Origin: Porpolomopsis calyptriformis
Lineage: Eukaryota > Basidiomycota > Agaricomycetes > Agaricales > Hygrophoraceae
Assembly: GCA_951640195.1 (NCBI GenBank)
Contig: OX621171.1
Location: 186,001 to 250,000, forward strand
Direction: 5' to 3'
DNA: 64,000 nucleotides
Position numbers and translations under genes: made by a program. Position 1 is the first letter of the stretch. Every line of letters starts with the position of its first letter. Under the pieces are notes generated by a model. It did no database searches, was not told the DNA's origin, and worked only from the letters and a program-made list of their open reading frames with translations. This document shows, in pieces, positions 1-55,610 of the stretch.

Positions 1-3
1 GCC

Positions 4-3000
4 TCAGGGAATTTTATTGATGAAGCATTCGTTCATCAAATGGAGATATCGACCTATCCGTTGGATGAGGTTATACTGGTACAAAATGCTGATGGTTCCG
101 AGAACTGAGGAGGTCCCATCACGCACGATACAGACCTGTTTATTGAGGCACCAGATTTATCTTTTCGAGAATGAATCCGGTTGGAGGTCACCAACTTAGG
201 AAGAAAACAACAGGTCATCCTCAGCTTCCTATGGCTCTTACGACACAACCCCACCATCAACTGGACAAAAGGCACCTTAACTTTTGCATCTGGTGACACG
301 CTGTTCAGTAGTATGCGAGTCAGAGTGTTGCCCCCACAGGAAGAACTCTACATCTTCAATTCGAGTCTGAAACATGACTCCTTTATTCACTTGGTTGGAG
401 TCGACCACTCCCAACCAGTTTCCATCAAGGAGGATATTAAATCCTTCATTCCCAGTCGTTATCACAATTTCTGGCGTGTTTTCCATACCACAGAATTCGA
501 CAAACTCCCTCCTCGATGTCCCTTTGATCATGCGATCAACCTCTACCCAAATACCAAATTTCAAGTCAGAAAACTCTATCCCCTTTCTCCCTATGAACAG
601 GTGGAACTCAACAAGTTTATTGATGAAAATCTCCGAACAGGTTGGATACGTCCATTGAAATCACCTCAAGCTGCCCCTTTCTTCTTTGCAAAAAAGGCCG
701 AAGAGATCAACGCTAAAGGTCTCAGTGCTGGTCTACGTCCCATCCAAGACTATCGCTACATCAACTCAAAGACTATTCCTGATCGCTACCCCCTTCCCCT
801 TTTGTCAGAAATCCTCCAAGTACTGAAGCTTGCTACTGCTTCTCTTTTCACAGTTATCGACATCCGATGGGGATTTAATAACATATGACTCAAGGAAGGC
901 GATGAATGGAAAGCAGCTTTCATCACCAATCGAGGACTCTTCGAACCGACTGTTATGTTCTTTGGACTACGGAATTCCCCAGCATCCTTTCAACGAATGA
1001 TAGATGTTCTCTTCAAACCCGTTTTGGACTCTGGCTGTGTTCACATCTACATCAACGACATTCTAATCATGGGCGACACCCCTGAAGAAATTCGCCACTG
1101 GACTGACGAAACCCTTGAACTCATGGAGAAGAATCAATTATCTGCCAAACCCGTCAAGTGTCAAATGGAGAAGACCTCTGTTACCTACCTTGGAACGATT
1201 ATCAGCAAAGGTCAACTCGCTATCAACCCAAAGAAGGTGGACGCCATCATCAATTGGCCAACACCTCAAAAGTTGCAAGATCTCCAATCATTCCTTGGCA
1301 CCACCAACTTTTGGCGCCACTATATCAAGAGTTTCTCCTCAGTGGTTCGTCCTCTCTGTGGCCTTTTACGGAAAGACCAACCTTGGGATTGGTCTCCCTT
1401 GTATCAAAAAGCCTTTGAACAGCTCAAACACCTCGTCACCACAGCCCCTGTCCTTCTTACTCCCCGACCAGACCTTTCTTATCTTTTGGAGACCAATGCC
1501 TCTGATTTCAGTATTGGCGCAGTCTTATCCCAGAAACACAACAATGGTTGGCACCCTGTCGGCTTTTTCTCAAAGTCCTTACTCCCTGCCGAGTATAACT
1601 ATCCTACCCACAATCTGGAGATGCTTGCAATTGTCACTTCCCTCAAGTACTGGTGCTATCTTTTAGAAGGCGCAAGGGATACTGTGTTGATAAAAACGGA
1701 CAATTTAGCGCTCAAGTATTTCATGCAGAACAGATCCCTCTCCAGACGACAAGCACGTTGGATGGAATTCTTAGGCAGATTCGATTTCAATATTAAGTAT
1801 TCCCCTGCAGCCAAAAACAAAGCTGATGGACTCTCTCACTGACCCAATCACCGCCGAACAGATAAAGAAGAACTAGAAGGTCAAGCCCTTCTTCCTCCCA
1901 AATGTTTCATCAATGCTATCATTTCCATGTCCGAACCCTCTTTCATGTCAAGATTTCATTTCCCCGACTTCAATCAAATCCCAGAGGACATTCGCATCAA
2001 ATTATCTGATTCCTCTTCCAGCTACTCCTTCACTGACAGAATTGTGAGAGATGCAGGAGATCGTATTGTTGTACCAGCGGACGTATCGCTACGCACAGAG
2101 ATAATTCAATTGACCCACTCCCTACCCCATGGAGGCCATCCCAGAATTGAGAAAACACGTGAGCTTGTGTTGCGGAACTACACCTGGAGTAGTGCTGCCC
2201 CTGATATCCATGTATTCATATCATCTTGTCCGACCTGTCAACAAGTCAAGCTTTACCCCTCAAAGCCTGCAGGTCTTCTAGAACCCATTCCCCCTTCGTC
2301 TCAACCTTGGGAAGAAATCACCACCAATCTGATCGTAGAACTCCCCCAATCATCTGGTTACGATGCTGTTTTAGTTGTTGTCGATCGTTTTACCAAACGC
2401 GCTCACTTCATCCTGACGACTTCAAACATTTCAGCAGAAGGAGTTGCAAAACTCTTTAGGGACAACATATGGAAACATCACGGCTGGCCAAAGAAGATCA
2501 TAACCGATCAAGGAACTCAATTCGCTTCCAAATTCGCAAAAGCTCTCAACACTCATTTGGGAATCATCTCCGGTTTGTCTACCACTTATCATCCCCAAAC
2601 CGATGGTCAAACGGAACGCACCAATCAAGAACTTGAACAATACCTTCGCTTATATACCAACTTTATGCAAGACGATTGGGCCAACTGGCTATCTCCAGCT
2701 GAATTCGCGTACAACAACCAACAACACTCCTCGATGAAACACACTCCCTTTTACCTTGATACTGGCCAACATCCCTTCATCCCATCCATCCCCATGACTT
2801 CTACCTCTAATCCTGCAGCAGACGCCTTCCACGATCACCTCACAGAAGCCCATGAGAAAGCCGCGAAAGCCCTAGAAACCACGGCAGAAACCATGAAGCG
2901 CTTCGCAGATCGCAAACGGAAAGATACCCAGTTCCAAATAGGTCAATTCGTTTATCTTGATACCCATAACTTAAAAACAGGTTGTCCAACCCTCAAACTC

Positions 3001-3375
3001 GATGTCCGATGCACTGGACCATTCAAAGTTCTAGAAAAAATCAGAAGAGTCTCTTATCGCCTGGCCCTCCCCTTATCATGGAAAATACATGACGTCTTTC
3101 ACGTTTCACTCCTAAGATCCACTAACATTAACTCCAATCTCCATCCAGAAGAAGTGGATGATAATCTCTGCCCACCTCCAGATGTCATTCAAGAAAAAGA
3201 AGAATACAAGGTTGAACAAATCCTTCAGCATTATGGATCCACCTGACGTCGCACGTATTTGGTCAAATGGGTTGGCTATCCCATTGAAGAAGCAACTTGG
3301 GAGCCAAAGAAGAACCTTTCTCATGTGAAAGAACGAATTCTAGAATATGAACAATCAATTCAAATGGCGACTTAA
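4..3375 (+). pseudogene. Ty3/gypsy chromovirus polyprotein E1: protease end, RT, RNase H, integrase, chromodomain
   Basis: One reading frame runs from the left edge to TAA at 3373 and is cut by TGA at 106, 172, 886, 1840 and 3244. Order: tail of the protease region (to about 300), reverse transcriptase (about 500-1300), RNase H (about 1400-1840), integrase with a CPTCQQ zinc-binding half (about 2230) and core (2300-2750), then a chromodomain (about 3205-3350, motif YLVKWVGYP). The element would copy its RNA and insert it into chromatin. Three catalytic Asp are Asn: RT motif YIND instead of YIDD (codon 1054), RNase H ETNAS (codon 1495) and the first integrase Asp (TTNLIVELP, codon 2326). Each AAC or AAT codon follows a C, so each fits CpG to CpA. 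All five stops fit CGA or TGG changed to TGA. gag and the 5' LTR lie outside the window. The copy is certainly inactive. Confidence 0.93.
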
Positions 3376-3499
3376 CCACTCTTTCACAGTATCAACTCCC
3401 CTCTTTTGAAACTTTTCACTTTCATCACCTTTTCCAAACTCCGACTCATCCTTATAACCTCTTTCGCCTCCGTTTTTCCCCTCAAAAGTCAACACCACT

Positions 3500-4078
3500 A
3501 TGCCCACCGAATGCTCTCACCAAACTGCTCGCAAGTCCACTGGTGGTCGTCCACCCCATGCTCCCCGTATGTCCACAGGAGGACAACCCCCTCCTCGCGC
3601 TCCCCCTCCTCTCACTTCCACCTCATCCACTTATGGTGAAGCTGAGCTCGCTGGACAACTCTGGCAACACAACTGATGTGCACAAAACTGGGACCTCGCC
3701 ATATGGCCCAAAGAAATAGTTGCACCACCCATCCCACCCAAGCAGATCATTGAGTCGTTGAAGAAGGACGTTGATTACTATAAGAGTGAGATCGCGAGGT
3801 TGAATGAAGAACTGTACAGTCAGTGGTTGAGTCTAGATGGAGAAAGAAGAACGAGCAAGTATTGGTGAGAACAGGCCAAGTATTGGAAGACGAAACACGA
3901 GGAAGTCACAAAGGTACTTCCCCATCTCAATTCCCCCGCTCCCCTTGTTTTCCCAGGTCCGCTCATTGTTCCCCCCGGTTCATCGTCGAACCCCATCACC
4001 ATTCCTGACGATGACAATACTTCCCCGGCCGACATTATTTCCCTGTCGACCACCATCTCCGACAAGGACTTATCCTAG
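3500..4078 (+). pseudogene. E1 second ORF with a histone H3 tail-like N-terminus
   Basis: Lies between the pol stop and the LTR. It starts at ATG 3500 and ends at TAG 4076, 192 codons, with two internal TGA (at HN*CAQNW and YW*EQAKYW) that fit Trp or Arg codons decayed like those of pol. Residues 8-16 read QTARKSTGG, identical to histone H3 residues 5-13 including the K9 site. A second partial copy, RMSTGGQ, follows, then a proline-rich stretch. The middle (about residues 80-140) looks alpha-helical or coiled-coil with many Lys, Glu and Tyr, and the C-terminus is Pro/Ser/Asp-rich. I do not recognise a named family. The H3 match is seen in the sequence. A role as a decoy or substrate for H3K9 methylation or reading, linked to the element's own chromodomain, is inference. 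Confidence 0.72.
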
Positions 4079-4159: not shown

Positions 4160-4526
4160 TGTCACGGATACTTTTTCCTTTTTCTTTTAGTCATACTTGA
4201 TTAATCTTTATTCCGTTTACCCTTCCGCTTTACTGCTTTATATATAGAGACTAGTCACATGTACCTTCTTTCTGACTCTTCACGAGTCACATTCTGTTTC
4301 CGTTATTCTTTTCGTGACTCTTCACTAGTCACATTCCGTTTTGCGCTTTGTAATCATCTATACGACTGACTCATGCTGACTCAGGTAGTTAGTATATAAA
4401 GCCTGACCTCTAGTCAGTAGGTTAAGTTCGATTCCTAGTTAGCTCCCTCACTCTTTAGTTGAATTCCATTTCCTCATCAGCCCCTCCAACGTGAGAAGTA
4501 AAGCCTTCAACTACCGAATCATAACA
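4160..4526 (+). repeat. LTR of element E1 (probable 3' LTR)
   Basis: Begins TGTCACGG just after the E1 ORFs, behind the purine-rich tract gatgtgggtgta, and probably ends at ATAACA. The solo LTR at 54573-54984 starts and ends the same way when read on the minus strand. It holds two TGACTCA sites and a TATA box. The partner LTR is outside the window, so the right boundary is not proven. Confidence 0.6.
4367..4399 (+). promoter_or_regulatory. Twin TGACTCA sites followed by a TATA box in the E1 LTR
   Basis: TGACTCA occurs at 4367-4373 and 4377-4383, one helical turn apart, and TATATAA at 4393-4399. TGACTCA is the consensus of fungal Gcn4/CPC1-type bZIP activators. The layout fits a U3 promoter, but binding is not shown. 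Confidence 0.5.
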
Positions 4527-8354: not shown

Positions 8355-10935
8355 TCACATTTCTTCGTCGTCTTCACGATCATAATCGCCGCGTTGGTTC
8401 TCATCCTCTTCCGCCATCCTGTTGTTAAGCTTGTACTTTTTCGACTGAAATGTTTGGGCGCTTTCGATCCTATCCAAATCACTCTTGCGCTTCCTTTCTG
8501 TGAGGAGACTGCTGCCAAACACCTGCCTCGTCGCTTTGTCATCTCTGGGCCAAGATGACCGGTCTTGGACAACCCCCTTGAGCAGTTCGAGCATGAAGAG
8601 CGATGAGCCCAGGAGTCCCTTGTACCGTTCGTAAAGATAGATGGGGTGCGTCTGGATGACAGCATGGTCTTGTGAAAATGAGGTGATCAAGACGTCATAA
8701 GCAGCCTTCTCAACATCACCGGGCGGCTTCTTGTAACGGACAGCAAACATATCATTGAGCTCGGCGAAGGACTTGTCGAGCACCTTGTTGAGAAAGTGCA
8801 CATATTCAGGAACTTCCCGTGCAAGGAGCATATTACGCTTCCTCACTCCGCCCTCGTTTGACTCATAGAATACTTCATCGAAAGCCGCCAGAAGATTGTC
8901 GAGTTTCTCGGGCGACTGGTTGTGGCGAGTATACCGCAAAGAGACCCATAGCAGCACCCAGAAGAACGACTCCAAGTCGTCCTGCAGTTGGTGCTCTCCT
9001 CCTGGTTCCATGAGTAAGCGCACGGAGATAAACTGCCAAGTGCCCTGCATAGCGGATGAGTATGAGGATAAAGAAGGAGCAGAAGAACTTGCAGTGCGAT
9101 CAGGTTGTCTGATGATTGTCTGTGTCGCGATATCTATCCCGGAACCAAGTGCAGGTAGGACAGAAGCATCTGCTTGCTGGTCAGCGTGAGTTGCCCGCGA
9201 GCTTGTTCCAACTTCTCCATGGCTTCTGTCCTCTAGGGGAGGCATCGGTGTACGAGAAGGTGGTACTCGCTTGCAGAGTTCCCAGTCGATTAACAAGCCA
9301 TTCTTTCGATCAGCCGTGAGGAGGACATTGCCGACGCTGATGTCACGGTGGAGTATTTTGGCTCGATCGTACGCCACCCAGTGAGCTACGGTGTGATAAA
9401 TCAAACAATTTTTGTACAGAGAAGGAGCACACTTATTTACCTTCAACAGCATCGGCGATAGCGTTGACGTATTCCCAAGATGATTCAAACAACGTCAGGC
9501 TTATGCCAACTTCACCTAGTACCAGCCTGTAAAGTGAGTACGTCGTTATATCCTGCATACGACAAGCCCAGGGTTGGTTCATCCACTGGTGATTAGATGT
9601 CGTGCAGAGCACACTGCTCGTGATGTCGCCTCCTCTTTCAAACTTGGGAATATGTGGGACATGATGGCGGTGGAGATCCCTATAAATATCCCCCTCCTTT
9701 TCCATACCTGGTCTGTTGATCCGCCAGTAGTCTTTGATCCAGACAACTTTGTCGTTCGCTACATCATAAGCAGTGAAGCCTCGTGTACATCTTCCCATGG
9801 GCGACCGCCGCGTATACGAGGGTGTCTGGGCAATATAGAACGCACCCGCTTCTGTGTCTTCAGGAACTGAGAGTTTGACAAAGGTGGCATCGGTGTCTTC
9901 GATGTGCAGGGCTCCCTTGGCATCATTTACTTCGTCGGTATTGGGAGTCGTGATGGATGGGTCGTAGCCACGCATATCCGACGAAAGCAAGTTATATCGC
10001 CAAAAGAATTCGGCAAGTTTTGTGGGATGCTGAATGTAATTGAAACTCTCCGTCACGACCGCACACGAGTGATCCCATAGGATAATACGCGCATAGTGAC
10101 GACAGATCAGCACCGAAAACAATCGTGTTCTGAATTGTCTTGCAAATACTGCATTGGCATAGGCGACAAGTTGTCCTTGCGTTTGTTGCGCGTATATGGA
10201 CTTGCGATGAAACCATGGACGTTGTTTATGGATGACGCTAGGACCAGAAGCCGAGGGGAGACCATGAACTTGGCGCGATTTCTCTTTGTGGGATTGAGAG
10301 GTCTTGTGGGTCTTGTGTGGCTTCTCGTTACAGGGGGCAGCATCTGTGAAAGGATCGTATGCTGGGGTTGGCTTGACTTCGATCCACATATCCATCGTTG
10401 AGAAGTCGGTTATTTGATCTGGGTTGTGCATTCCTTTGGGATACGCAGCAATGTCGGGTCGCATTTCGTCGCAGGAGTTGTCAGGATTTTCCGAAGTCTT
10501 CACGAATTTGATGGATGAGAGCGGTTGAAAGGCATCAATCTAAACGATACCGCATGAGTGGTCAGTTAAAGGACTTCTTCGTTAATTACTTACAATTTTC
10601 TCGTACATTTGAGGTTCGGTTTTAGTCAAAATCGCGAACAAGTCGTGAGGGATGAGGTCTGCTGGCATTGGCTTCGATGGAGGCAAGTAATGAGCCATGA
10701 AATCGTGAAGCGGCATGGGGCCAAGGAATCGACCATCGGTTTCTCGGGCCAGTTGAAGGAAAGCCTGATCGCGTCTGACGGCATTGGAGGAGAACGACCG
10801 AAAACCCGCTGACCTTGCTTTTATGGGTGTGCTGTGCGCTCTGGGTGGTCGAGCAGGGGGTGTTTGGGCACGACTGGGGAGGGGTTTTATCGGAGAGGAA
10901 TAGAATCTTTCGGGAGGAATCTCTTGGTGAGACAT
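8355..10935 (-). CDS. FunK1-family protein kinase, three exons, 823 aa
   Basis: Complement join 10935-10594, 10539-9441, 9385-8355. The two introns (54 and 55 bp) have GTAAGT/TAG and GTAAAT/TAG ends, and the phases fit. The start is ATG 10935 and the stop TGA is at 8355. The kinase core shows the catalytic loop HRDISVGNVLL at residues 493-503 and a metal-binding DWE in place of DFG at 514-516, as is usual in FunK1. A candidate ATP-anchoring Lys sits in VWIKDYW with a following Glu in EGDIYRDL. The first 120 residues are Pro/Ser-rich. The C-terminus is a basic then acidic tail (KRKSD, REDDEEM) that may be nuclear. FunK1 is a fungal kinase family greatly expanded in mushrooms and its substrates are unknown. 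No lesion was found, so the gene looks intact and could be expressed. Its upstream neighbour on the same strand is 208 bp away. Confidence 0.9.
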
Positions 10936-52891: not shown

Positions 52892-55610
52892 TCTCCAAGG
52901 CTTTTACCCCATGGAATGAAATTATCAGATTTATGACCACGAGTTGCTTGCAATCATAACTGCGCTCCAAGAATTCTGCAAATAGCTACTATCTGCTAAG
53001 CAAGTCTTTGAGGTTTGGATGGATCGCACCAACCTCCAATACTTCAAACTGCCTCAGAAGCTGAATAGGTGCTAGGCTAGGTGGCTCACAGAGCTTCAAG
53101 ACTATCACTTCACTCTCCACTATGTCGCTGGCAAGGCCAACTCCAAGGCTGATATCCTGTTGAGACGACTAGGTTTTAAGAGGGGGTGAACAATAATGAC
53201 AATGTTATTTTACTCCCAGCTAATCTCTTCCCCACCCCAGATCATCCTACTGTAGACCTCCATCAGGTTCAGCATGAAGTTGAACCCACTAATTTCCACT
53301 CTTGGATTCAAAATTTGTACTGAAATGAAGAAAAACAAGCCACACTCCTTCAAGAAAAATGCAAAACCGATTGGAAAACCTGAGATAATGGTATTAAGAC
53401 CTTCTTGGACCAGACTTACATCTCAAAGGACACCCCACTCCACAGTGAAATCATTGCTCAATACCACGATAATCCTCTCTCTGGACACTATGGCTCCTTC
53501 AAGACCTCTGAAGCTGTGTGTTGCAACTACTGGTGGCCCACCATCAGGAGAGATGTTGAGACTTATATCTGTGGTTGTGAAATGTGCCAGTGAACCAAGG
53601 CATCCCGATTACCCATGAAAACCCTGCTCCATCCCTTTGACCCTCCTCCTCAACCCTGGGATATGATCATGGTCAATCTCATTGGCCCTATACCTGAATG
53701 TCAGGGCTATAACGCGATCCTCATGATCATTGATCACTTCTCAAAGGCTGCCAAGTTCGAGGCCACCCATATCGAGCTGAACTCTGAAGGGTTCGCAAAA
53801 ATCATCCAGGATTGTGTCATCTGAGATCACGGTATCCCCTGATGCATCATCCACAATCACGATCCGCAATTTGTTTCCAAGTTTATGACCAATCTCTTCC
53901 ATCTTCTGGGCACCTCCCCAAACATTTCCACAGCTTATCATCCCCAGACTGACAGCCAGTCTGAACGAATGAACCAGATGCTCGAACAATACCTTCGCAT
54001 CTTCATCAATCATCATCAAGACAATTGGAAGGAATGGCTTGCGTTAGCAGAGTTCTCATACAATAACTCAGTCCACACAGCCACACAACAAACTCCCTTC
54101 TTTGTCAACTATGGTCAGAACCCCTGGAAAGGAAACAATACTATGAGAGAAGTCTGAAACGAATCTGCAACTCAATTTGCCGATTGTATGAAAAATGTCC
54201 ACCAGGAAGCCAAAGCTACTCTCAGGAGAGCCAACGAAATGATGAAGACTGCTCATGACAAGCACATCCAAGCTACTCAAGAATACTCACCAGGAGACAA
54301 GGTATAGTTAGCTGCCACCAACATCAAAACCAAATGACTAATGAAGAAGCTTGATAACAAATGCTTCGGTCCTTTTAAGGTTGTTGAGAAAGTTAGCTAC
54401 TCTGCCTATAAGCTCGAACTCCCTCCCGAATGGCTGGGACTCTATCCAGTCTTCAATGAATCATACCTCTCTCCTTATCGATCTCCTTCATTTCCTAATC
54501 AGAAAAAACCTGCCCCCCCTCCTCCTATCCAACTTGAAGGTGACTCTGAATACTTCGTTAATGAAATCCTAGTGTTATAAACTGGTTGCCGATGAGATGG
54601 TTTTACTTCGGAGAGCTCTGTCCCAAGACGATGATGATGTCTCAAGTCCTAGTTGTTGGATTGCTAACGAGGAATCAGACTTAAGGTCTGTGTACGACTA
54701 ACTAGGAGTTTATATACTAACTACGCTACTGCGGATGAGTCAGTATAAACACGAGGAATACATGAGGAGTACATGCGATGAGTAAAGATAAACATGATAA
54801 GAGACTCGGAGCATGTGAAGAGATGAAACATAATGGTCGGAAATGAAGTATGTCCTATCTCGGATAAATGAAAAGATATGGAATCGTGGGGAATCCCTGG
54901 GGAATCCCAAGTGGAGATAAGACCTGTCTGACTAAGCAATGATGACTAACATAGAGAGGAAGTGAAAAATTTACGTCCGTGACACCTAGACTCTCATCTG
55001 CGATGAGGAAAACTCCAATACTTGGTACACTGGGAAGGCTACACCAGTGAAGAAAACACTTGGGAGCCTGAATCAAACATCAAGAACACCCAGGAATTGG
55101 TTGATGAGTTTCACACTCTCCACCCTGAATGACCAGCCCCTCAACTCCGACTATGTGTCATTCGAATGGATGACTTCTTTGGAATTGACAAATGTCTCTA
55201 TGATCCAATCACAGACTCCACTGGTGAGGATTACAAACCGCCAAAGGTCAGTGACAATATCGACGTTCTCATTACTCTCCACCCCACAGAAGTCGACTAA
55301 CTACTTGACTGTGATTTCAATGGTTCTATCTTCTTCCCTCATTTGCCTTCAACCACTCATTAAGCATGGATCTATGAAACCAGTCCTATCAATGCAATCA
55401 TGGCTATTCTACGACTAGATAGTCATGGTCAAATGCTCTGAATGTACTAACTTGTTTCCCCTCTGTCTACCCTGGAAATCCATTGGTGATACCAATATCA
55501 TCTCCCAACCTCTCCCTGTTATGCACCTCAGTGGTTACTATGAGACTGTTCAAGACATCTCCAATGCCTGTTCTAAGGTTGTGTGGATGTGAATTTGAAG
55601 AGAGGGTGAT
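52892..55610 (+). pseudogene. Element E6: RNase H end, integrase, chromodomain, C-terminal tail
   Basis: Plus-strand frame starting inside RNase H (NYQIYDHELLAIITAL at about 52925). The integrase follows: zinc part TYICGCEMCQ (about 53565), core at 53640-54160, then the GPFKVVEKV module. The chromodomain is split by the solo LTR: YFVNEIL before 54573 and LQYLVHWEGYTSEENTWEPE after 54989. A further 150 residues (VIRMDDFFGIDKCLYDPI) reach the LTR at 55610. Two catalytic integrase Asp are Asn (MVNLIGP and IHNHDPQF). Stops (CQ*TKA, VI*DHGIP*CI, KV*LAATN) fit CGA or TGG. RT and gag are missing, presumably beyond the E4 insertion. Confidence 0.87.
54573..54984 (-). repeat. Solo LTR inside the E6 chromodomain
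   Basis: 412 bp, plus-strand ends TGTTATAA...CCGTGACA, flanked on both sides by CCTAG (54568-54572 and 54985-54989), a perfect 5-bp target duplication. Same family as the E4 LTR. TGAGTCA at 54736 lies near a TATA region. It formed by LTR-LTR recombination after a full element inserted. Confidence 0.93.

Follow-up and report, generated by a model that had tools for sequence, protein, structure and literature searches.

One family of LTR retrotransposons in this genome carries, just downstream of an integrase that ends in a chromodomain, an accessory open reading frame (ORF2) near whose start lie nine residues, QTARKSTGG, identical to positions 5 to 13 of histone H3. The stretch of H3 around K9 is the one marked by cells to silence transposable elements. 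ORF2 is under selection, with the motif among its best-kept parts; that selection has kept a stretch identical to H3 suggests that the element meddles with the host silencing machinery. The reading leaned towards here, with some reservation, is that the ORF2 tail is a selected mimic of the H3K9 site and acts on host H3K9 methylation. If so, it is a case of histone mimicry by a transposable element, and of an element that carries both a reader of H3K9 methylation, its chromodomain, and a copy of the substrate of that mark. A search of the literature (open-licence PMC papers) found no retrotransposon-encoded H3 mimic.

The window, i.e. the whole stretch of 64,000 nucleotides that was analyzed, starts inside the pol frame of one copy of the element, with the 5′ part of pol upstream of it and the 5′ end of the element likewise outside. 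The element features described here are on the + strand. The 3′ part of the Ty3/gypsy pol frame (1..3375, frame 1), encoding reverse transcriptase, RNase H and integrase, has in-frame stops at 886-888, 1840-1842 and 3244-3246 ahead of its terminal TAA at 3373-3375, and integrase domains are detected in the frame of this copy itself. The last of the internal stops, a TGA, falls within the HP1-like chromodomain at the integrase C-terminus (about 3199..3363); that the element has such a domain had been claimed in the original prediction, and it is indeed present just upstream in the integrase frame and is named as such by Pfam in a related copy (L022). A spacer of 124 nt in the window copy (3376..3499) leads from the pol stop to the ATG of ORF2, the product of which begins MPTECSHQTARKSTGGRPPHAPRMSTGG. 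ORF2 (3500..4078) had been taken for an open frame and in this copy is not one, as TGA codons at 3674-3676 and 3866-3868 break it; with these stops the window copy is dead, and a motif-bearing peptide would still precede the first of them. Most intact relatives have an ORF2 of 192 codons plus stop.

The motif is encoded at 3521..3547 in the frame of the ATG at 3500, with the K9 equivalent at 3533-3535, and all nine of its residues are as in H3. ORF2 had been said to start with it, but MPTECSH precedes and the motif is residues 8-16. The second, partial STGG motif also reported is found as MSTGG (3569-3583), within a degenerate repeat, PRMSTGG (3563..3583), that has Met at the K9 position. A helical, coiled-coil part is predicted at 3740..3934 from a low-confidence model of related copies, and the same part resembles an ORF found in a different family of LTR elements. 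Comparison with other copies sets the limits of the 3′ LTR, TGTCACGG...ATAACA, at 4160..4526. Expression of ORF2 from a spliced message was considered, and an acceptor AG near the ATG is absent in some copies (e.g. L012, L016); as there is no such AG common to all copies, a spliced message is not supported.

The fuller layout comes from related copies. In L022 Pfam identifies protease, RT, RNase H, integrase and Chromo in the order of a chromovirus, Chromo at E 7.4e-13, and the solved chains that come top for its chromodomain are the Oxpecker, CBX1, CDYL and HP1 chromodomains; Tyr, Trp and Tyr of the element chromodomain presumably occupy the positions of the methyl-lysine cage. LTRs of ~369 bp, 6.3 kb apart start to start, are present at several loci (40 of 225 LTR candidates were scored), and the full elements seen are ~6.7 kb. 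By its LTR pair with TG...CA ends, its domain order and its C-terminal chromodomain, the family fits the definition of a chromovirus. The chromoviruses described in PMC2864245 have the same LTRs, protease-RT-RNase H-integrase order and C-terminal chromodomain, and those of fungi can have extra ORFs of undetermined function; however, the part of that paper drawn on here mentions no H3-like motif, whereas the extra ORF of the present family has an exact H3K9 site. Among chromodomain copies of the family, 87 of 89 have ORF2 within 1.5 kb downstream. For the other two the ORF2 row lies on the same contig at a distance of 7-8 kb, and these may be nested insertions. Farther along the window (53843-55111) is what is left of a further integrase, including a piece like a chromodomain, in pieces 36-48% identical and with no ORF2 match nearby.

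The tail of ORF2 is basic, rich in Arg and Pro, and has no predicted structure (low-confidence model, mean pLDDT 54.6), with a probable coiled coil modeled after it. For a related intact ORF2 no Pfam family is over the cut-off, none of three matches below it is to a histone, and no histone domain that would indicate a histone fold is among the Pfam matches up to E 1. What ORF2 has is an exact match to a histone tail at a modified residue within a non-histone protein, and this is what is expected of a histone mimic. Chance or misreading is a negligible explanation for it. A codon-degenerate pattern for the nonapeptide, which detects uninterrupted coding only, has 70 exact sites across the 17 contigs (33.5 Mb) of the genome, 67 of them in the ORF2 family and the other 3 in histone H3 genes, while its reversed control has 0. 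When residues 1-35 from a natural, related copy are searched against the sequences of solved structures, the best matches are H3 peptides (E 0.0045), aligned ungapped over RSHQTARKSTGGRPPR. In related copies, though not in that of the window, the match continues in register, 12 of 16 residues being identical between RSHQTARKSTGGRPPR and RTKQTARKSTGGKAPR; at the K14 position 32 of 39 intact copies have Arg.

As a query, the C-terminal part of ORF2, from which the motif is excluded, gives 127 rows in the genome. Leaving out short fragments (e.g. C4:397110-397656) and a family of 33% identity, the count of copies is 101, and in 67 of these the nonapeptide is exact, in 34 not. Those read number 72, namely the one in the window, 37 taken as pieces of 6 kb and 34 as pieces of 0.76 kb; the pattern search shows the exact motif in every one of the remaining 29. 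Forty of the exact sites were fetched, of which 37 are ORF2 and 3 are H3 genes, and 29 of those 37 have no stop ahead of the end of the ORF. The 67 exact copies use 16 synonymous nucleotide spellings of the nonapeptide. Nineteen of the 34 others have QTA(H/C)KSTGG, QTARKSTSG or QTARKSTGS, each one C-to-T or G-to-A change away, and changes of this type also create TGA and TAG stops. The absence of the motif or the ORF from other copies was one outcome that could have overturned the original prediction, and it is not what is seen, with the motif exact in 67 of 101 copies overall and in 29 of the 39 that were read and are intact.

Some of the copies have moved lately. In two elements (C6:1399609/1405921 and C2:2680341/2686653, among the 40 scored of 225 candidates) the LTR pairs are 100% identical, so these insertions are recent, and of four copies that do not differ over the part of ORF2 that was tested, no two have the same flanks and one sits inside the ORF2 of another copy. 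Taken together, the identical LTR pairs and the identical ORF2 parts with different flanks imply that recent movers carry the motif. The family was examined within one genome, and outside it no ORF2 homologue was found at E 1 or better among 157 candidates. Three loci, C1:520864 (L009), C4:420336 (L030) and C5:733147 (L043), are of a different type: their 6-kb stretches are near-identical (7 differences between L009 and L030, with L043 not identical either), and in each a divergent ORF2 subfamily adjoins part of another LTR element. They look like a segmental duplication or composite unit rather than separate insertions.

Selection was assessed on 71 aligned copies, 39 of them intact, a truncated row (L066) having been dropped before counting. 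Q5, T6, A7, K9, S10 and T11 are kept in every one of the 39; R8 is His or Cys in 7 (CpG-type changes), and G12 or G13 is lost in 3. H3K9 methyltransferases need R8, and its loss in 7 of 39 intact copies counts against the H3K9-mimic reading. Mean pairwise pN/pS (Nei-Gojobori counts, 741 intact pairs) is 0.09 for the motif, the lowest of eight segments, the other seven being at 0.15-0.50 and ORF2 at 0.23. Between L009 and 35 others it is 0.05 for the motif and 0.30 for ORF2, and when the four members of the L009 lineage are compared with these 35 it is 0.09 for the motif. Parsimony on a tree of the intact copies assigns the motif 9 amino-acid steps and 24 silent ones, against a neutral expectation in which at least two-thirds would be amino-acid (P 4e-6 or 1e-7, depending on the site fraction used). 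With regard to the standing of the motif within ORF2, 8 of 182 windows of 9 codons, the motif included, are at or below its pN, and 20 of 182 by pN/pS; its ratio of amino-acid to silent steps is not significantly lower than that of the rest of ORF2 (Fisher P 0.07), and comparison with the N-terminal flanks gives P 0.007. Over all 71 copies, decayed ones included, no constraint specific to the motif is apparent (ratio 0.85, ORF2 0.83), a count inflated by four decayed rows (L068, L071, L080 and L081) that are non-homologous over the N-terminus. In decayed copies the motif drifts, with 46 amino-acid and 47 silent steps. The codon counts for intact copies, windows and flanks thus mark ORF2 as selected and the motif as one of its best-kept parts, and a lack of codon constraint on the nine residues, the other outcome that could have told against the prediction, is likewise not observed.

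That constraint covers the whole of ORF2, and not the motif alone, is pertinent to a reading unrelated to H3K9, in which the tail serves RNA or DNA binding, nuclear localization or packaging and its identity to H3 results incidentally from capture or chance. The Arg and Pro richness of the tail accords with this. However, a basic tail would tolerate swaps of K and R, yet Lys is at K9 in 39 of 39 and S10 and T11 are invariant, and the exact identity over nine residues is preserved in 16 synonymous spellings; such a use of the tail is considered unlikely.

With respect to origin, the H3 gene at C2:3412913 has a predicted micro-exon, between apparent GT-AG introns, that consists of Q5-G12 plus the first base of G13, and an apparent intron lies right after STGG in all three H3 genes. 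The ORF2 nonapeptide has the same limits as the predicted micro-exon, which suggests that the motif may have arisen by exon capture from host H3. Stepwise convergence is also possible, given flanking similarity at R2, P16 and R17 and a MPAxRSxQ start shared with the ORF of a sister family (below). Each of the 67 element motifs has between 1 and 7 differences from the three H3 genes over 26 positions, every one of them synonymous, which does not separate descent from H3 from convergence. An extreme version of capture, where the H3 identity is the functionless fossil of a host exon, takes its plausibility from the micro-exon and the position of the introns, but is very improbable: the codon analysis disfavors it, the motif being constrained and present in recently moved copies, and part of the ORF2 start may be older, MPAxRSxQ being found in the sister ORF2 also. 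An origin by capture is in any case compatible with function. For the host machinery, there is one Pre-SET match, which we take to be the mark of H3K9 methyltransferases, and there are six DNA-methylase matches; a search for an HP1 chromoshadow domain, done without a positive control, had no match in the host genome. A divergent H3-like gene at C1:1282163-1282647 (48% in one piece) is possibly a centromeric H3 variant.

The sister chromovirus family is 61-64% identical in the chromodomain region (at least 61 rows among the best 150 of 795 candidates) and has, at the position of ORF2, an ORF that in the one copy read (L089) starts MPATRSTQSPSP and is without the motif. This ORF as a query gives at least 150 rows, these being the best 150 of 289 candidates. 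The main family and the H3 genes between them take up all 70 motif sites, so that none is in an ORF of the sister family, and the presence there of a motif-free ORF at the same position confines the mimic, within this genome, to a single family. The sister ORF and ORF2 have the MPAxRSxQ start in common, and match with a BLASTP E of 0.010 in the coiled part and a global alignment z of 4.4; since this similarity is weak, homology is put no higher than likely. A third LTR family (L083 at C3:1283400-1285400, and L084-L088) also has a 3′ ORF, the coiled part of which is 33% identical to that of ORF2 (E 6e-10); Pfam finds no Chromo in a 344-residue piece of its integrase, and those of its copies that were read at the start of the ORF have no motif. 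To judge from these sequences, a 3′ coiled-coil ORF seems common to different LTR elements here, and with no motif found in the sister or third-family ORFs, it seems to be older than the H3 motif. The sister family also provides a built-in natural control in the same genome.

If the tail is indeed an H3K9 mimic, a host methyltransferase of SUV39/DIM-5 type would take it as substrate, HP1-type chromodomains would bind the methylated form, and the coiled coil would present several tails at once, with the result that writer and reader would be drawn off the element's own chromatin. Such use as an anti-silencing decoy is plausible, though short of probable. More broadly put, the product may be an accessory protein whose copy of H3K9, substrate plus pseudo-substrate, disables or diverts the host heterochromatin machinery, and this version is just as tentative. 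H3 being abundant, titration would need ORF2 expression that is high or local. The footprint of a chromodomain reader on H3 is not known to reach residues 11-13. ORF2 keeps R8-G13, and so keeps whole the footprint of R8, S10, T11 and G12 that, in the portion of PMC8303541 used here, is read by SUV39H2; conservation beyond S10 fits the footprint of a writer better than that of a reader alone.

The next likeliest employment of the same mimic has to be weighed given the HP1-like chromodomain in the very same element and the proximity of ORF2 to 87 of 89 chromodomain copies, namely that the host methylates ORF2 and the integrase chromodomain of the element itself then binds it. This is rather unlikely, as is its elaboration, in which an ORF2 oligomer would join or regulate the integration complex or occupy the chromodomain until integration. 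Residues 11-13 are kept though beyond the chromodomain footprint, and the same-place ORF of the sister family lacks the motif. As that family has a chromodomain, a chromodomain needs no mimic, making the suggestion in the original prediction that the mimic recruits the element's integrase less compelling, and it is mainly for this reason that the decoy is favored. Were the mimic to work, the way in which an LTR element escapes from H3K9-based silencing would be directly testable with one peptide.

The second repeat is a separate matter. Residues 22-28 are P(R/H)MSTGG in 31 of the 39 intact copies. All 39 keep the Met, and the residue ahead of it is Arg in 21 and His in 18. It is weakly kept, with a pN/pS of 1.33 between L009 and the others and loss of its GG in the L009 lineage. 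In H3K9M mutants Clr4 is sequestered on the altered histone, according to the part of PMC8443253 drawn on, and the likeness is in the Met at the K9 position. The ORF2 repeat, in contrast, is not nucleosomal and has a degenerate flank (R or H at -1). It could serve as a weak pseudo-substrate of H3K9M type, a resemblance to be treated as a lead only.

Viral histone mimics include influenza NS1 and SARS-CoV-2 ORF8. Among host proteins, mimics at the automethylation sites of G9a/GLP bind HP1 once methylated (PMC9768651), and H3K9-like motifs have been proposed for partners of EHMT and CBX proteins (PMC10611923). ORF2 is like the host and viral cases in having a short linear motif resembling the H3 tail within a non-histone protein, and differs from them in being encoded by an LTR retrotransposon, in the identity of nine residues, and in belonging to an element with a chromodomain and a second repeat with Met at K9. 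Accessory proteins of transposable elements that counter host silencing have a precedent in the VANC proteins of Arabidopsis VANDAL elements, which are sequence-specific in the excerpts of PMC5735166 and PMC10398659 relied on. ORF2 is an accessory protein of a transposable element too, and its anti-silencing action would be by way of a histone-tail mimic. Elsewhere in the window, at 8355-10539 on the - strand, are two large ORFs that resemble a fungal FunK1-type kinase.
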